Assembly: GCA_025362495.1 (NCBI GenBank)
Contig: JANYGI010000017.1
Coordinates: 1-33,799 of the forward strand
DNA length: 33,799 bases
Direction of reading: 5' to 3'
Source of the DNA: Byssovorax sp.
Lineage (GTDB): Bacteria; Myxococcota_A; Polyangia; Polyangiales; Polyangiaceae
The notes below the pieces were generated by a model, which was not told the DNA's origin, did no database searches, and saw only the letters and a program-made list of their open reading frames with translations. Below are positions 2,897 through 12,174 of this stretch, one piece after another. The translations under genes were made by a program, and so were the position numbers. Within the stretch, counting starts at the first letter, position 1. Each line of letters opens with the position of its first letter.

Positions 2897-3520
2897 GTGA
2901 ACCTCGCGCGCGCCGCACTGGCCCTGATCGTCGCGCCGACGCTCCTCGCGTCGGTGTCGTCCGAGGCCGCCGCAGAGGGCCCGATCGTGGCGCCGTCGAT
3001 CGCGTCGGCGGAGGCCGCGCGCAACGCCGACGACGACGACGCGAGCGGCCTCCTCGCGTTCGTCACCGGCGCCGCGACCGCGCTCGTCCCCGTGGCCATC
3101 GGCGCGACGATCGCCGACCGCGGCAAGACGGATCCCGCGAAGAATACCGGCCTGATCGTCGCCGGCGCCGGCGTGGCGCTCGCGCCGTTCACCGCTCACG
3201 CCATCAACGGCGAGTGGAAGCGCGCCGCCGCGTTCAGCGCCGTCCCGATAGCCACCGAGATCGCGATCTCGGCGCTCCTCGCGGCCCGCCCCGACGCCGT
3301 CTACCAGGGCGACAAGATCACCCGCACCATCTTCGGCGTGCTCTTCACGACCGACGTGTTCATCGCCGCGCTCGGCATCGTCGACGCTTCATTTGCCGGC
3401 GATCGAAAGCGGGAGCGCGCCCTCGCGGTGCCCGCGAAGAGCGCCGCACCCACGCTCCGTTACCTCTCACCGACGGTCGCCGGAGGCGGCTTCGGTCTCA
3501 CCCTCGGAGGCACGCTGTGA
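2897..3520 (+). CDS. Membrane protein heading the DUF4266/DUF3570 operon
   Basis: Read from the GTG at 2897 (VNLARAALALIVAPTLLASV) this is a 207-residue protein with a signal peptide that could be cleaved after SSEAAA. An upstream TTG at 2861 in the same frame is less likely because it would put a polar stretch before the signal sequence. Mature hydrophobic segments follow: LLAFVTGAATALVPVAIGAT, GLIVAGAGVALAPFTAHAI and two more around FSAVPIATEIAISALL and GVLFTTDVFIAALGIV. The C-terminus (TVAGGGFGLTLGGTL) looks beta-like and ends in a hydrophobic residue. I recognise no family. Its stop overlaps the GTG of the DUF4266 gene (GTGA), so it is likely co-expressed with that cassette and may act in the envelope with it. 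Confidence 0.75.
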   Translation: MNLARAALALIVAPTLLASVSSEAAAEGPIVAPSIASAEAARNADDDDASGLLAFVTGAATALVPVAIGATIADRGKTDPAKNTGLIVAGAGVALAPFTAHAINGEWKRAAAFSAVPIATEIAISALLAARPDAVYQGDKITRTIFGVLFTTDVFIAALGIVDASFAGDRKRERALAVPAKSAAPTLRYLSPTVAGGGFGLTLGGTL

Positions 3521-3729
3521 AGCGCTTCATCGTCCTCGCGTCGCTCGCGCTCGGGCTCGGCGGCTGCGCGATCGTGCCCCAGAATCGCCGCGCGCGCCTC
3601 GCCGATCCGATGATGTCCCTCGCCGACGATCCGCTCGAGGTCCACCGCAAGCAGAAGCTCTACAGCACGCGCGAAGGCGCGGCCGGCGGCGACGGGCTCG
3701 CGGCCGGCGGCGGCTGCGGTTGCCAGTGA
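3517..3729 (+). CDS. DUF4266 small lipoprotein
   Basis: A 70-residue protein starting at GTG 3517, inside the stop region of the previous gene. It has a lipoprotein signal peptide with lipobox LGGC (C17), then the family core: RARLADPMMSLADDPLE and HRKQKLYSTREGAAGGDG, ending in GGGCGCQ (C67 and C69). DUF4266 proteins typically end in a GGxGCGC-type tail and sit next to DUF3570 and thioredoxin-family genes, as here. The lipidated N-terminus and CxC tail suggest a membrane-anchored peptide whose C-terminal cysteines are oxidised, metallated or modified, which is inference. The gene overlaps the DUF3570 start by four bases (GTGA). It is hidden inside a longer spurious frame, so automatic calling could miss it. 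Confidence 0.88.
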   Translation: MKRFIVLASLALGLGGCAIVPQNRRARLADPMMSLADDPLEVHRKQKLYSTREGAAGGDGLAAGGGCGCQ

Positions 3730-4928
3730 AGCGGCCGGCGAGCGCGGGGCTCGCGCTCCTCGTGCTCGCCGCGGTGACGGGCGCGCGGGAGGCCGCCGGA
3801 GACGACACGAAACCCGCTGAAACAAAGCCTTTCCCGCCCCTCTTCGCCGACGGCGACATCCTCGCCAAGCCCGCTCCGTACTTCCGGCTCGACTCGGCGG
3901 CGGTCCGCTACACGCGCTTCGATCAGAGCGGCACGGGCTACCAGTCGCGCGCGGGCAAGCCCTCGGGCCCCGGCTCGGAAGAGATGCGCGTCGAGCAGCC
4001 GCAGCTCGAGGTGGTGATAAAGCAGGGCGCCCATCTCACCCATCGCGTCTGGATCCCGGTCGACGTCGTCACCGCCGCTTCGCCCGACGCCATCGATGTC
4101 GTCAGCACCGCCTCGCGCCGCAACGAGGCCGCCTCGGTCGACTGGACAGCCACCTACGCCAGGGACCACACCACGGCCTCGATCCGCAACGGCCACCACG
4201 AAGAGGAGAACTACCGCTCGTGGAACTCTGGCCTCGCGCTCACGCGGGCCTTCGCGGAGGACAATACCGTCGTCTCCGCGGGCGTCAACGTCGTGCTCGA
4301 CTGGTTCGACAGGTACACGCTCCAGGGCGCGCACGACGGCCACAACGCGCGGAGCTCGATCAACTTCAACGCCGGGGTGACTCAGCTCCTCTCGCCCACC
4401 ACCGTCGCTCACCTCGACTATGGATACACGGTACAAGAGGGGCAGCTCTCCAACGGGTGGAACATCGTCCCCACGCCGCAAGGGGCCTTTCAGCTCGAGA
4501 AGCTCCCCGCCGAGCGCGGGCGCCATGCCTTCGTGGCCCGCGTGGCCCAGCACCTGCCGTGGAGCGGCGCCGTTCACGGCTCGTATCGCTTCTACCTCGA
4601 CACGTTCGGCATCGCCGCCCACACGGTGGAGGTCGAGCTCCACCAGCGCATCGCCTCGTTCGCGCGCCTCCGCTTCAATTACCGGTATCACACCCAGACC
4701 GGGGCCGATTTCTTCCGCACCAGCGTCCCGCTCGGCGCCCCGATCTTCGCCACGGCCGACAGCGATCTCGCCCCGCTCCACGCCCAGACGGTGGGCGTCA
4801 AAGGCACCTTCGATTTCCCGGTGTCGTTCGCGCGCACCCTCCACGCCGACCTCGCCGTGGAGCGCTACTTCCGGTCGAACGACCTGCGTGTTAGCGTCTA
4901 CTCGTGCGGACTTGGTATTCTCTTCTAG
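3726..4928 (+). CDS. DUF3570 outer-membrane-type protein
   Basis: The 400-residue product starts at GTG 3726, overlapping the DUF4266 stop. It has a signal peptide (LALLVLAAVTGAREAAG) and then a DUF3570-like body: FRLDSAAVRYTRFDQSG near the mature N-terminus, HHEEENYRSWNSGLALTRAF, VVSAGVNVVLDWFDRYT, and alternating amphipathic segments through to a C-terminal SVYSCGLGILF. The strand-like periodicity with aromatic girdles suggests a beta-barrel in the outer membrane. DUF3570 commonly accompanies DUF4266, a thioredoxin-like protein and an ApbE-type flavin transferase; no ApbE gene is in this window. Function is not established. The downstream thioredoxin gene starts 25 bases inside this one. 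Confidence 0.87.
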   Translation: MKRPASAGLALLVLAAVTGAREAAGDDTKPAETKPFPPLFADGDILAKPAPYFRLDSAAVRYTRFDQSGTGYQSRAGKPSGPGSEEMRVEQPQLEVVIKQGAHLTHRVWIPVDVVTAASPDAIDVVSTASRRNEAASVDWTATYARDHTTASIRNGHHEEENYRSWNSGLALTRAFAEDNTVVSAGVNVVLDWFDRYTLQGAHDGHNARSSINFNAGVTQLLSPTTVAHLDYGYTVQEGQLSNGWNIVPTPQGAFQLEKLPAERGRHAFVARVAQHLPWSGAVHGSYRFYLDTFGIAAHTVEVELHQRIASFARLRFNYRYHTQTGADFFRTSVPLGAPIFATADSDLAPLHAQTVGVKGTFDFPVSFARTLHADLAVERYFRSNDLRVSVYSCGLGILF

Positions 4929-5431
4929 TCGTCCTCCCCTCCCTCCTCGCGTGCGCCGGTCCCGTTCCCGGTAGCGGTCCCGTTGCCGCCCTCGTCCCCG
5001 CTCCCGTTCACGCTCCCGCCCCGGCGTTGCTGCCCGCCGTCGAGCTCGTCACGGCCCAGAACCACGCCGCGGGCGTCGACTCGATGCGCGCCGGCAAGGT
5101 CGCCCTGGTGAGCTTCTGGGCCCCGTGGTGCGACTCCTGCGTGGCCGAGCTCGACGCCCTCAATCGCCTCGACGATCGCGCTCGATCGAGCGGCGGCCTG
5201 GTGATCGGCGTCGCCGTGGGCGAGACGCCGGACAGCGCCGCGGCCTTCGTGGCGAGCCACAGGATCCGGTATCCGCAGCTCGTTGACGAGGACTACAAAC
5301 TGACGGACGCGCTCGGCCAGCGCCGCGTCCCCACGACTCTGGTGGTCGATCGCACCGGCCATGTCGTTTATACCGGCGGCGCGCTCGACGAGCGCGCGCT
5401 CGCGGCGTTTCGCGCGGCGCTGGGCGGTTAG
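4904..5431 (+). CDS. TlpA-like thioredoxin-fold lipoprotein
   Basis: A 175-residue thiol-disulfide protein starting at GTG 4904, within the end of the DUF3570 gene. The N-terminus is a lipoprotein signal (lipobox LLAC, C17) followed by a Pro/Ala/Val linker that would hold the domain away from the membrane. The thioredoxin fold carries the redox motif WAPWCDSC (C76 and C79) and the cis-proline loop RRVPTTLVV (P143). It should act in the periplasm as a reductant or oxidant of a partner's cysteines. The adjacent Cys-tailed DUF4266 lipoprotein is the obvious candidate substrate, which is inference from context. This gene ends the four-gene overlapping operon. Confidence 0.9.
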   Translation: MRTWYSLLVVLPSLLACAGPVPGSGPVAALVPAPVHAPAPALLPAVELVTAQNHAAGVDSMRAGKVALVSFWAPWCDSCVAELDALNRLDDRARSSGGLVIGVAVGETPDSAAAFVASHRIRYPQLVDEDYKLTDALGQRRVPTTLVVDRTGHVVYTGGALDERALAAFRAALGG

Positions 5432-10073: not shown

Positions 10074-10170
10074 TGGCCGGCCCGGGAAACACCGTGATCG
10101 CCCCGACCGAGACGGCGGAATGCGGCCGAGCGCGCGGGCGTACAGAGCGCCTCACCACGAGGACGGGATC

Positions 10171-12174
10171 ATGGGACGACGACTTCTTCTTCTGGGCGCG
10201 GTCGCGACCATCGCGGCCTGCAGCGCCGCTCCGACGGCGGGCCCGGGCGCGGCGGAGAGCGAGGCGCGCGTGGCGCCGACGCGGACCGACACCGAGACCG
10301 AGGCCGCGCCGGCCGTGGCGATCGCCGCGCCGGCCACGACGCCGGCGGGGCGCTGCGCGCGGCTCCACCCCGGCGCGGGGGCGGCGCGGCTCGGCGCGAT
10401 CCACCAGGGCAGCAGCGTCGCGCTGGCGACGATCGACGGCGCCACGATCGCCTACGTCGCCGACGAGGACGACAGCGCCCTCCACACCTTCGACGTCGAT
10501 CACGGCACCGAGCTCGCGGTGACGCCGCTCGACGGCGCGCCCTCGCAGCTCCTCGTGCTGGGCGATGGGCGCGTCGCGGTCGCGCTCCGCGATCGCAACC
10601 GTGTCGCGATCCTCGAGCCGCCGGCCCGCGCGGATCTGCCGCTCGACGCGCTCTGCGACGCGCCCGTGGCGATCGAGCCGGTGGCGCTGGCGACGTCGCC
10701 CGACGGGGCGCGCCTCTTCGTCACGAGCGGCTGGGGCCACGCGCTGACCGCGCTCGATGCGAGCGATCTCGCGACGGCCTTCACTGTCGACCTGCCGCGC
10801 GAGCCGCGCTCGATCGTCATCGACGACAACGGCCGCCGCGCCTTCGTCGCCCACGTCGTCGGCGCGACGATGTCGGCGGTGAGCCTCGACACCCGCGATC
10901 ACGCGGTCCACGCGATCGATCTCCGCGCCTCCGCCAAGGCCGGGTGCCAGGGCTACGCGCTGACGATGACCAGCCTGGTCGCGCCGGGCCGCGACGCCGC
11001 GAGCGCGGGGACGGGCCGGCTCTTCGCGCCGATGGTGACGGTGGATCCAGGCGATCCGAAGCCTTCTTTCGGCTACGGCGGCGCGCTCGAGGTCCCCGCC
11101 GAGACCGCGCTCGTCAGCGTCGTCGACACCACGGCCGAGCGCACGCTCACCCGCGCTCGCGGCTCCGACGGGGCGAGCCGTCGGCGCGAGTGCCTCCTGC
11201 CGCGCAGCGCGACGATGGACCCGGACGGCGGCCTCCTCGTGAGCTGCCTCGGCATCGACGCGGTCGTCGAGCTCGACGCGCGCGCGCAGAACCCCGCGGC
11301 GGTGGAGCGGCGGCGCTTTCACGTCGCGGCGGGGCCGACGGGCGTCGCCGCGGACCCCGAGCATCGCCGCGCCGTCGTGTGGTCGCAGTTCGCGCACGAG
11401 CTCTCGGTGATCGATCTCGCGGCGCCGATCGTGGCCAGGAAGGGCGCGACGCCCGCGCCCGACTCGACGCCCGCGATCCGGATCGCGGCGATGCGCGAGC
11501 AGGGCTCGTGGGTCACCCCCGAGATCGCCCGCGGCCGCGCCCTCTTCCACGCCACCGACGACGCGCGGGTCTCGCGCGACGGCCGCGCCTGCGCGAGCTG
11601 CCACCCCGACGGCCGCGAGGACTCGCTCACGTGGTCGACGCCCGACGGCCCGCGCCAGACGATCATGCTCGCGGGCCGCGTCGTCGGGAGCGAGCCCTTC
11701 GGCTGGTTCGGCGCGAACAAGACGCTCTCCGCGCACCTGACGCGCACCCTGCAGCGCCTCGGCGGGACGGGGCTCGACAAGAGCAAGGGCGACCTCGCCG
11801 CGCTGCTGGCGTACCTCGGCGCGATGCGCGCGCCTTCGCTCGCCGGCGCGCCCGCGGACCCGACCCGCGCGGCCCTGATCGAGCGCGGCCACGACATCTT
11901 CCTCGAGCCCGCGCAGGGGTGCTCCACCTGCCACCTCGGCGCCGGCACCGACAGGCGCGCGCACGACGTCAAGAGCGGCAACGTCGACGAGACCAGCCTC
12001 CGCTTCGACACGCCGTCGCTCCGCTACGTCTCCGGGACGGCGCCCTACTTCCACGACGGGCGCTTCCGCTCGCTCGAGGACGTGATGGAGCACAGCGACG
12101 GCACCATGGGCCACACGATGCACCTCTCTCGCCCGGACCTGCTGGCCCTCGTGGCCTACCTGGAGACGCTGTGA
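10171..12174 (+). CDS. Beta-propeller di-haem cytochrome c lipoprotein
   Basis: The 667-residue protein starts at ATG 10171 (GAGGA upstream) with a lipoprotein signal, lipobox IAAC. Residues of about 60-440 contain repeated propeller-like segments of the YncE/surface-antigen type (TIDGATIAYVADEDDSALHT, VALATSPDGARLFVTSG, SIVIDDNGRRAFVAHVV). Two haem c motifs follow, C474ASCH478 and C584STCH588, in a cytochrome c peroxidase/MauG-like module that ends FHDGRFRSLEDVMEHSDGTM and a helix. It should be a periplasmic or surface electron-transfer or peroxidase-type enzyme. The propeller fused to di-haem module is a recurrent architecture in myxobacterial lipoproteins, but the substrate is unknown. Its stop overlaps the GTG of the next lipoprotein. 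Confidence 0.88.
   Translation: MGRRLLLLGAVATIAACSAAPTAGPGAAESEARVAPTRTDTETEAAPAVAIAAPATTPAGRCARLHPGAGAARLGAIHQGSSVALATIDGATIAYVADEDDSALHTFDVDHGTELAVTPLDGAPSQLLVLGDGRVAVALRDRNRVAILEPPARADLPLDALCDAPVAIEPVALATSPDGARLFVTSGWGHALTALDASDLATAFTVDLPREPRSIVIDDNGRRAFVAHVVGATMSAVSLDTRDHAVHAIDLRASAKAGCQGYALTMTSLVAPGRDAASAGTGRLFAPMVTVDPGDPKPSFGYGGALEVPAETALVSVVDTTAERTLTRARGSDGASRRRECLLPRSATMDPDGGLLVSCLGIDAVVELDARAQNPAAVERRRFHVAAGPTGVAADPEHRRAVVWSQFAHELSVIDLAAPIVARKGATPAPDSTPAIRIAAMREQGSWVTPEIARGRALFHATDDARVSRDGRACASCHPDGREDSLTWSTPDGPRQTIMLAGRVVGSEPFGWFGANKTLSAHLTRTLQRLGGTGLDKSKGDLAALLAYLGAMRAPSLAGAPADPTRAALIERGHDIFLEPAQGCSTCHLGAGTDRRAHDVKSGNVDETSLRFDTPSLRYVSGTAPYFHDGRFRSLEDVMEHSDGTMGHTMHLSRPDLLALVAYLETL

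Follow-up and report, generated by a model that had tools for sequence, protein, structure and literature searches.

Clusters that combine genes for ApbE, a thioredoxin, DUF4266 and DUF3570 have been described in connection with DsbD-type flavinylation (Meheust et al., eLife 2021; PMC8238504), some of them also including DsbD. In that study, the CxC motif of DUF4266 is described as highly conserved, and the DUF3570 protein of Chlorobium luteolum is reported to be an ApbE flavinylation substrate with two [S/T]GA[S/T] sites.

The window analyzed here, a stretch of 33,799 nucleotides that makes up the whole of contig C123, carries a variant of such a cluster, with the contig starting 2.9 kb 5' of the cassette. 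As in the clusters of that study, a DUF3570 gene, a DUF4266 gene with a C-terminal CxC and a gene for a thioredoxin-fold CxxC protein form one operon. Compared with the clusters as presented there, however, neither ApbE nor DsbD was found in the cluster, the thioredoxin-like protein is of the AhpC-TSA/Redoxin (TlpA/ResA-like) type instead of PF13899, and the cassette has a glycine-free motif, an extra gene at its head and conserved overlaps of 4, 4 and 25 bases. The DUF3570/DUF4266/thioredoxin core is already known; the head gene, the glycine-free sites and the unlinked ApbE are its variant features. A plasmid cluster of Hymenobacter sp. DG25B (NZ_CP010056.1, L141) likewise combines a thioredoxin, DUF4266 and a DUF3570 with a glycine-free motif (DIYSSAS), but it has an adjacent ApbE (FAD:protein FMN transferase) and no annotated head gene. 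Minicystis rosea DSM 24000 (CP016211.1, L143), the nearest cultured relative found, carries the four genes in the same order with the same three overlap-giving start codons; its DUF3570 is 63% identical to that of the window, and no difference between the cassettes was noted.

Gene organization and the head gene

The original prediction described an overlapping four-gene cassette at 2897-5431, with genes for a membrane protein, a mini-lipoprotein of the DUF4266 family, a DUF3570 protein and a lipoprotein resembling TlpA, and this is borne out by the sequence, the open reading frames and the Pfam assignments (Table 1). The head/DUF4266 and DUF4266/DUF3570 junctions are both GTGA overlaps of 4 bases, and the TlpA-like gene shares 25 bases with the 3' end of DUF3570. 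Its reading as an operon holds as well. Overlap-giving start codons were compared across 18 loci, including that of the window, whose DUF3570 proteins are 43-63% identical to the window's. A start codon for the same overlap is present at the three successive junctions in 13/17, 14/17 and 14/16 loci, presence of a start codon not being proof of its usage. Since these matching start codons recur over the loci of the group, the overlaps are, judged from the sequences, not due to chance. A promoter scan revealed no sigma-70-like site on the + strand, the sigma-70 consensus saying little for a myxobacterium.

Table 1. Positions in the window of the cassette genes and their putative functional motifs
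Feature	Position	Strand	Basis
Head gene, 207 aa	2897..3520	+	ORF; hydrophobic segment at the N terminus, core predicted to be helical, beta hairpin at the C terminus; Cys absent
DUF4266 mini-lipoprotein, 70 aa	3517..3729	+	PF14086; lipobox-like LGLGGC (read by eye); C-terminal Cys-Gly-Cys-Gln
CxC motif of DUF4266, putative redox pair	3715..3723	+	Sequence; CGCQ end
DUF3570 protein, 400 aa, predicted 16-strand outer-membrane beta-barrel	3726..4928	+	PF12094; AlphaFold; structural matches
Flavinylation-like site 1, DVVTAAS, residues 113-119, candidate acceptor Ser119	4062..4082	+	Alignment
Flavinylation-like site 2, DVVSTAS, residues 124-130, candidate acceptor Ser130	4095..4115	+	Alignment
TlpA/ResA-like lipoprotein, 175 aa	4904..5431	+	Lipobox-like LLAC; WCDSC active site; VPT loop
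CxxC active site of TlpA-like protein, C76-C79	5129..5140	+	Sequence

Pfam assigned DUF3570 (113.6 bits, cut-off 25) and DUF4266 (48.5 bits, cut-off 27) clearly above threshold. The TlpA-like protein matches AhpC-TSA (58.9 bits, cut-off 26) and Redoxin (58.7 bits, cut-off 26.6) and, below cut-off, a ResA-like NCBIfam model, with PF13899 absent at E ≤ 1; WCxxC is present in all 16 TlpAs found in the loci with a head gene. Among the 25 of 27 called window genes scanned with Pfam, neither DsbD nor a transporter was found, the conserved cassette itself being devoid of transporters, and the four cassette proteins contain no CxxCH, the motif of multiheme c-type cytochromes.

A homologue of the head gene occurs in 18/18 loci of one DUF3570 group (Myxococcota, including M. 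rosea), accompanied by DUF4266 in 17 and TlpA in 16 of these loci. The refuting condition of the original prediction, a head gene not conserved beside DUF4266, is contradicted in this group (17/18 loci). Co-occurrence is confined to it, a head gene having been found for 18 of the 37 rows of the tree of window-type DUF3570s, with none for the other 19, and in 12/240 genomes examined from the class. All 12 strong matches are linked to the cassette. The remaining 5 of the 17 matches have weak E-values between 1.7e-10 and 9.8e-4, and the one in G100 was seen without DUF4266 or DUF3570; up to 14 candidates per genome were scored, and weak homologues may have been missed. In these comparisons the head protein is a conserved, group-specific partner of the cassette.

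An alignment of 15 head sequences shows nine invariant residues (G92, P97, H101, E106, R109, P117, G160, D163 and G205), including a single His and no Cys. Because of this, the head has no conserved thiol pair or bis-His heme site; a conserved membrane Cys pair or at least two conserved His, the features of a DsbD-like or bis-heme donor, are absent from the alignment. Its AlphaFold model has a mean pLDDT of 81.7, with block means of 93-97 over residues 51-170. Membership of a known family was rejected: Pfam gave nothing above cut-off (best SPW, 18.6 bits, cut-off 31.5), NCBIfam gave no match, Foldseek gave none at E ≤ 0.001, and VIA-align returned only helical bundles of unrelated proteins at Z ≤ 9.2, within the range in which the tool is uninformative for helical models. 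The fold is therefore left unassigned rather than called new.

Flavinylation-like sites and an unlinked ApbE

According to the original prediction no function was established for these genes. In fact, flavinylation of a DUF3570 by ApbE has been published (PMC8238504), although the prediction is right as regards the task of the flavins. Neither site of the window DUF3570 (TAAS, STAS) contains the strict [S/T]GA[S/T], yet both match the relaxed pattern Dxx[ST]xA[ST]. In an alignment of 37 window-type sequences, which like the tree omits L109 as its contig begins inside DUF3570, site 1 retains D, S/T, A and S in 37/37 and site 2 retains D, S/T and the final S in 37/37 and A in 34/37, with Gly in a single sequence at each site. 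For a K. pneumoniae enzyme, changing the motif Gly to Ala is reported to lower flavinylation to ~50%, and changing an acceptor Thr to Ser to cost 10-55% (PMC12052999). Site 1 is likewise glycine-free in two DUF3570s from Hymenobacter plasmids (DIYSSAS and DYYSSAS), one of which adjoins its own annotated ApbE. A loss of function through the missing glycine was set aside because D, S/T and the acceptor Ser are kept in 37/37 and a Hymenobacter cluster with ApbE is glycine-free at site 1, which suggests that the motif glycine is dispensable. Neither Hymenobacter DUF3570 shows a recognizable second site of this type, and the annotation divides the one adjoining ApbE into two ORFs. A plasmid search with another DUF3570 type and a profile search of PDB sequences gave no match.

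ApbE was predicted to be missing from the window, and none is present among the 25/27 genes scanned. A genome-wide Pfam search (genome 96.6% complete) found one copy on contig C118, unlinked to the cassette. Using this ApbE in phmmer searches, no match was obtained in the available flanks of 38 window-type loci (0/38), 26 of which have 3 kb or more on both sides; with the Hymenobacter ApbE added, there was no match in 68 loci. Wide flanks were covered for the 36 window-type matches at E < 1e-44 except G031, G201, G157 and G015. By gene positions, in at least one case in the class (G136, contig C63), ApbE lies ~5 kb from a DUF4266 on the other strand. Overall, the survey suggests that ApbE is not required inside the cluster.

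Across the 240 genomes, in which DUF3570 stands for a tblastn-type match to the window protein and not for PF12094, ApbE is present in 147/155 genomes with DUF3570 versus 46/85 without. In the 108 genomes without matches to the three other ApbE substrate domains considered (FMN_bind, DUF2271 and NqrB/RnfD, further substrate types being flavodoxin-like, FMN_red and fumarate-reductase), the counts are 60/66 with DUF3570 versus 9/42 (Fisher p ~1e-13), and within the window's own family they are 19/21 with DUF3570 or DUF4266 versus 6/15 (p 0.002), these statistics ignoring genome size and, beyond the own-family comparison, kinship. No ApbE match was obtained in 8 of the 155 DUF3570 genomes, four of which are 95-99% complete (G029, G117, G154 and G215). 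The genome under study also encodes an FMN_bind protein with DIVSGAS. Given its SGAS, this protein is another likely substrate of the genome's ApbE, and the notion that ApbE serves only DUF3570 here was rejected.

A predicted outer-membrane barrel

The AlphaFold model of the DUF3570 protein (mean pLDDT 84.3) shows 16 strands, with loops of 18, 14, 3, 5, 23, 4, 26 and 4 residues on one side and turns of 2-4 residues on the other. The even number of strands, the long loops opposite short turns and the aromatic C-terminal end (LF) follow the pattern of outer-membrane barrels. Outer-membrane barrels head the structural matches; these include PelBC, a polysaccharide secretin (4y25), BcsC, CymA and OmpG (Z 16-21), and uptake barrels are represented by CymA, FadL and PirA. 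Model confidence is low in loop 2 (residues 117-131), with pLDDT < 50.

With the orientation taken from the general rule for outer-membrane barrels, 18/18 near-invariant barrel positions in 26 divergent DUF3570s fall in the extracellular half (background 59%), as do 54/70 in a closer set (background 60%). Considering strand residues only, the outward contrast is weak in the divergent set (p 0.048, or 0.22 once residues 108-135 are removed) and stronger among the closer sequences (p 0.0007, or 0.003 after the same removal); in the divergent set the correlation with depth is not significant (p 0.28). Strand parity in the model places the invariant Arg, Asp and Tyr on the lumen side. Judging from this model, DUF3570 looks like an outer-membrane barrel with a conserved site on its outer side. 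Of the predicted "periplasmic or outer-membrane redox module", the redox reading stands, whereas a purely periplasmic module does not agree with a barrel whose conserved site is predicted to face outward.

Proposed mechanism and alternative readings

Building on the order of the genes, the conserved motifs, the co-occurrence of ApbE, the predicted barrel and the invariant-residue positions computed here, we propose that the cassette encodes a heme-free outer-membrane flavin relay in which DUF3570 is flavinylated in trans and is fed by the thiols of TlpA and DUF4266, a reading to which we attach an even chance. The barrel probably carries covalently attached flavins: the unlinked ApbE lipoprotein would attach two FMN, at Ser119 and Ser130 in extracellular loop 2, before barrel insertion. 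The CxxC of the TlpA-like protein and the C-terminal CxC of DUF4266 would transfer electrons as thiols across the periplasm and might either reduce the flavins or be oxidized by them. Close to the invariant Arg, Asp and Tyr of the barrel's outer mouth, the flavins would form the site of reaction with an outside substrate, and electrons could pass to or from the cell exterior without hemes. Electron passage across the outer membrane via a beta-barrel is also what is proposed for porin-cytochrome conduits such as MtrCAB of Shewanella and OmbB-OmaB-OmcB of Geobacter; compared with those conduits as commonly outlined, the window cassette has no CxxCH and its proposed carriers are flavins instead of hemes. 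The head would be a group-specific membrane partner, for which assembly or scaffolding is likelier than electron carriage given its lack of an invariant Cys and its single invariant His.

A different function of the same flavins, as part of a reductive uptake channel, appears unlikely. An oxidized metal complex or similar compound, iron being the likeliest ligand, would be bound at the mouth and reduced by flavin, and the product would pass through the barrel, in agreement with the uptake barrels among the structural matches and with a lumen lined by the invariant Arg, Asp and Tyr. Such matches are poorly informative on function, however, and neither the conserved cassette nor the scanned window genes include a transporter. 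Slightly less probable still is that DUF3570 is not flavinylated at all and that TlpA and the CxC lipoprotein drive thiol-disulfide maturation or repair of outer-membrane or surface proteins, which would leave or dock through the barrel. The missing glycine at both sites, the lack of an ApbE match in the available flanks of the 38 loci, the four near-complete DUF3570 genomes without an ApbE match and the retained CxxC and CxC would fit this explanation. Yet it hardly accounts for candidate acceptor serines and aspartates kept in every aligned sequence. The co-occurrence of ApbE with DUF3570 also speaks against it, as do serines that persist although TlpA was not found in 10/20 window-type loci without a head gene. 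These headless loci also bear on the idea that the head is an inner-membrane electron donor standing in for DsbD: DUF3570 remains in the 19/37 rows for which no head was found, with TlpA in 10/20 loci. The head is predicted to be helical, is probably membrane-embedded and comes first in the operon of its group, and DsbD is not among the scanned window genes, but the window protein lacks Cys altogether and its family conserves no thiol pair or bis-His site, and we consider this role very improbable.

In the flavin relay that we favor, the flavins would sit at the boundary between the cell and its surroundings, a position taken by multiheme cytochromes in other systems. Since ApbE apparently need not adjoin the cassette and the motif glycine seems dispensable, flavinylation censuses based on gene neighborhood or on the strict motif would overlook loci of this kind. 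With the head gene comes a new family tied to the cassette. More tentatively, and with considerable doubt, DUF3570s may represent an unrecognized class of heme-free outer-membrane redox conduits with two covalently bound flavins at the mouth beside conserved charged residues and a shared ApbE acting in trans, the version of myxobacteria having in addition a dedicated membrane protein from a new family. Flavinylation of a DUF3570 is proven (PMC8238504); if DUF3570 is an outer-membrane barrel with flavins at its outer mouth, their purpose becomes testable.

Organization and conservation of the cassette

The window is a complete contig of 33,799 bases, from a genome that measures 10.8 Mb. By their coordinates, the four cassette genes overlap one another at each junction. 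For the TlpA-like gene, inspection of the sequence showed that a start at 4904 yields a lipoprotein signal; a composition-based gene caller picked 5027. A gene for a CCP_MauG (di-heme cytochrome c peroxidase-like) protein is located 4.7 kb 3′ of the cassette (10120-12174 in the window).

Coordinates of the cassette genes in the window
Feature	Positions	Strand	Assignment
Head (predicted membrane protein)	2897-3520	+	no Pfam match over cut-off
DUF4266	3517-3729	+	Pfam
DUF3570	3726-4928	+	Pfam
TlpA-like	4904-5431	+	Pfam

When 240 genomes of the class, the window included, were ordered solely by how similar their DUF3570 is to the window's, a head gene adjoined DUF3570 in exactly the 12 top matches (≥45% identity); the next full-length match (42%, genome G072) has no head in its flanks. 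Scanning named genome contigs separately, with an alignment of DUF3570s as the query, yielded 15 loci of at least 35% identity, the head being present in 14 and absent in one (35%). By the lengths of their contigs, eight of these 14 are common to the first set, which brings the union to 18 loci. A head homologue is present in every one of them, DUF4266 stands between head and DUF3570 in 17 (not in locus L150), and a TlpA protein with WCxxC was detected in 16 (not in L150 or L064). A start codon allowing the same overlap is found in 13/17, 14/17 and 14/16 loci for the three junctions, from 5′ to 3′. Since gene content and overlapping starts are kept across these loci, the gene order is, judging from sequence comparison, under selection, and translational coupling probably is as well. 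A half DUF3570 gene at a contig edge (L109 in G073; 54% identical over its part) was left outside this judgement. Among cultured organisms, the closest relative identified for the cassette is Minicystis rosea DSM 24000 (Polyangiaceae, Myxococcota), whose DUF3570 is 63% identical.

A protein search detected the head in 14 of the 240 genomes. In 12 of them it adjoins a window-type DUF3570, that is, one resembling the window's; in the remaining two, G100 (E about 6e-4) and G071 (about 7e-4), it has no such neighbour. With a profile search the head was found in 17 genomes, the same 12 strongly (E below 1e-28) and the other five weakly. In a tree built from 37 DUF3570s of the window type and 13 of other types, the 18 head-bearing rows group at one fork (89/88 support, unstarred) and the 19 headless window-type rows at another (98/98, starred); a formal count, which set the head rows against just the 13 rows of other type, gave one head change. 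On the basis of this distribution and these forks, the head looks like a single, group-specific gain or loss. Its 15-row alignment contains nine invariant residues (G92, P97, H101, E106, R109, P117, G160, D163 and G205), none of them a cysteine. The AlphaFold model comprises four helices (35-75, 79-103, 107-130, 140-164) plus a hairpin at the C-terminus, and no fold stands out when it is compared with known structures. In three other lineages, an SH3_3-domain protein is encoded directly 5′ of DUF4266/DUF3570 (L122 5619-6410, L132 5682-6521, L135 6908-7711), a place comparable to that of the head gene.

Flavinylation-like sites and the supply of ApbE

The published DUF3570 (PMC8238504) contains two [S/T]GA[S/T] sites. 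The candidate sites of the window protein are DVVTAAS (site 1) and DVVSTAS (site 2). Among 37 aligned window-type sequences, the D, S/T and final S are present in 37/37 at both sites and the A in 37/37 at site 1 and 34/37 at site 2, with Gly in 1/37 at each. A review (PMC12052999) gives the ApbE motif as D-x-x-[S/T]-G-A-[S/T], reports that in one enzyme a Gly-to-Ala change brought flavinylation down to about 50%, and describes Ser as less efficient than Thr in the acceptor position (10-55% decrease). Gly is likewise missing from two DUF3570s of Hymenobacter plasmids (DIYSSAS and DYYSSAS), one of which adjoins its own ApbE; a clear second site was seen in neither. The DIYSSAS protein, from Hymenobacter sp. 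DG25B (L141 4414-5666), is split in the annotation into two neighbouring ORFs and may come from a broken gene. We infer, on sequence grounds, that the Gly-free form would be a working variant and not a dead site.

As the original prediction correctly stated, ApbE is missing from the window. A genome search found one ApbE on another contig (C118:95836-96690), with a lipoprotein-like signal and no recognised flavin gene next to it. ApbE was found in 0/38 window-type loci (flanks up to 6 kb; both flanks at least 3 kb in 26/38), and in a subset of the compared loci the sole ApbE was the genome's own. Of the 240 genomes, 155 have a DUF3570 match and 147 of these carry ApbE, versus 46 of the 85 without a match. 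Because other ApbE substrate domains (FMN_bind in 100 genomes, DUF2271 in 66, NqrB/RnfD in 76) could explain this link, genomes containing any of them were removed, after which ApbE was present in 60/66 genomes with DUF3570 versus 9/42 without (p about 1e-13, without genome-size or kinship correction beyond a family check). Restricting this last comparison to the 56 genomes of the window's family (DUF3570 or DUF4266) gave 19/21 versus 6/15 (p 0.002). Eight DUF3570 genomes, four of them 95-99% complete, gave no ApbE match. The only FMN_bind found in the window's genome (L013 1450-2100) keeps a DIVSGAS site, and the genome's ApbE therefore need not exist for the sake of DUF3570.

In at least nine class genomes (G116, G119, G122, G125, G130, G139, G042, G083 and G076), DUF2271, which is likewise a published substrate of ApbE, is no more than about 1.3 kb away from DUF4266, and one further contig (G136:C63 20794-27058) holds ApbE, DUF2271 and DUF4266 inside about 6.3 kb. 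The window's genome contains three more DUF3570 loci (L010 7093-9750, L011 5915-9631, L012 6026-9230). Two have a DUF4266 match, two of the DUF3570s bear a long N-terminal extension (741, 703 aa), and small proteins with CxxCH-like or CxxxxCH motifs adjoin the loci; in seven such proteins scanned, no Pfam cytochrome scored over cut-off.

A predicted outer-membrane barrel

The AlphaFold model of DUF3570 has 16 strands, joined on one side by loops of 18, 14, 3, 5, 23, 4, 26 and 4 residues and on the opposite side by turns of 2-4, and its closest structural matches are outer-membrane barrels (BamA, PelBC, the polysaccharide secretin 4y25, BcsC, CymA and OmpG; Z 16-22). Known outer-membrane barrels have both ends in the periplasm; as both ends of the model are placed there, the flavinylation-like sites would fall in the second extracellular loop, which is itself poorly modelled.

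A divergent set of 26 DUF3570s, hand-picked from both kinds encountered and sharing 20-54% identity with the window protein, has 18 near-invariant barrel positions (conservation above 0.9 in columns occupied by 70% of rows or more). Every one of these positions falls in the extracellular half (background 59%). They include R264, R266, R288, Y290, D292, R320 and Q324, assigned to the lumen by strand parity. For a closer set of 16 sequences the figure is 54/70 positions (background 60%). Over all strand residues, the half-to-half contrast is weak in the divergent set (p 0.048, or 0.22 when residues 108-135 are left out) and clear in the close set (p 0.0007, or 0.003 with the same omission). Given that variability in outer-membrane barrels is usually greatest in the outer loops, conservation in the modelled extracellular half points to an outward active site.

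Proposed mechanism and relation to the known module

ApbE would flavinylate the unfolded barrel in the periplasm. TlpA (CxxC) and DUF4266 (CxC) would form a thiol relay, and the flavins would swap electrons with these thiols and with something outside the cell, while the head may aid assembly or tethering of the set. Of TlpA and DUF4266, the latter seems nearer the core, as TlpA was not found near 10/20 headless window-type loci and DUF4266 is present in 18/20, with a contig end truncating the remaining two. The VIT1 links published in PMC8238504 make iron a candidate for the outside reactant.

Within the literature searched (most subscription journals and all preprints lay outside it), DUF3570, DUF4266 and their Pfam numbers appeared in PMC8238504 alone, the main text of which does not contain the word 'barrel'. 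Within the same limits, no outer-membrane flavinylated protein appeared in titles or abstract openings among the matches listed. The cassette is a real, conserved variant of the known flavinylation module, from which it differs in three ways: ApbE would come from elsewhere in the genome, the motif lacks Gly, and a head gene is added. Its putative flavoprotein, DUF3570, is predicted to be an outer-membrane barrel whose flavin site faces outward, a prediction not made in PMC8238504.
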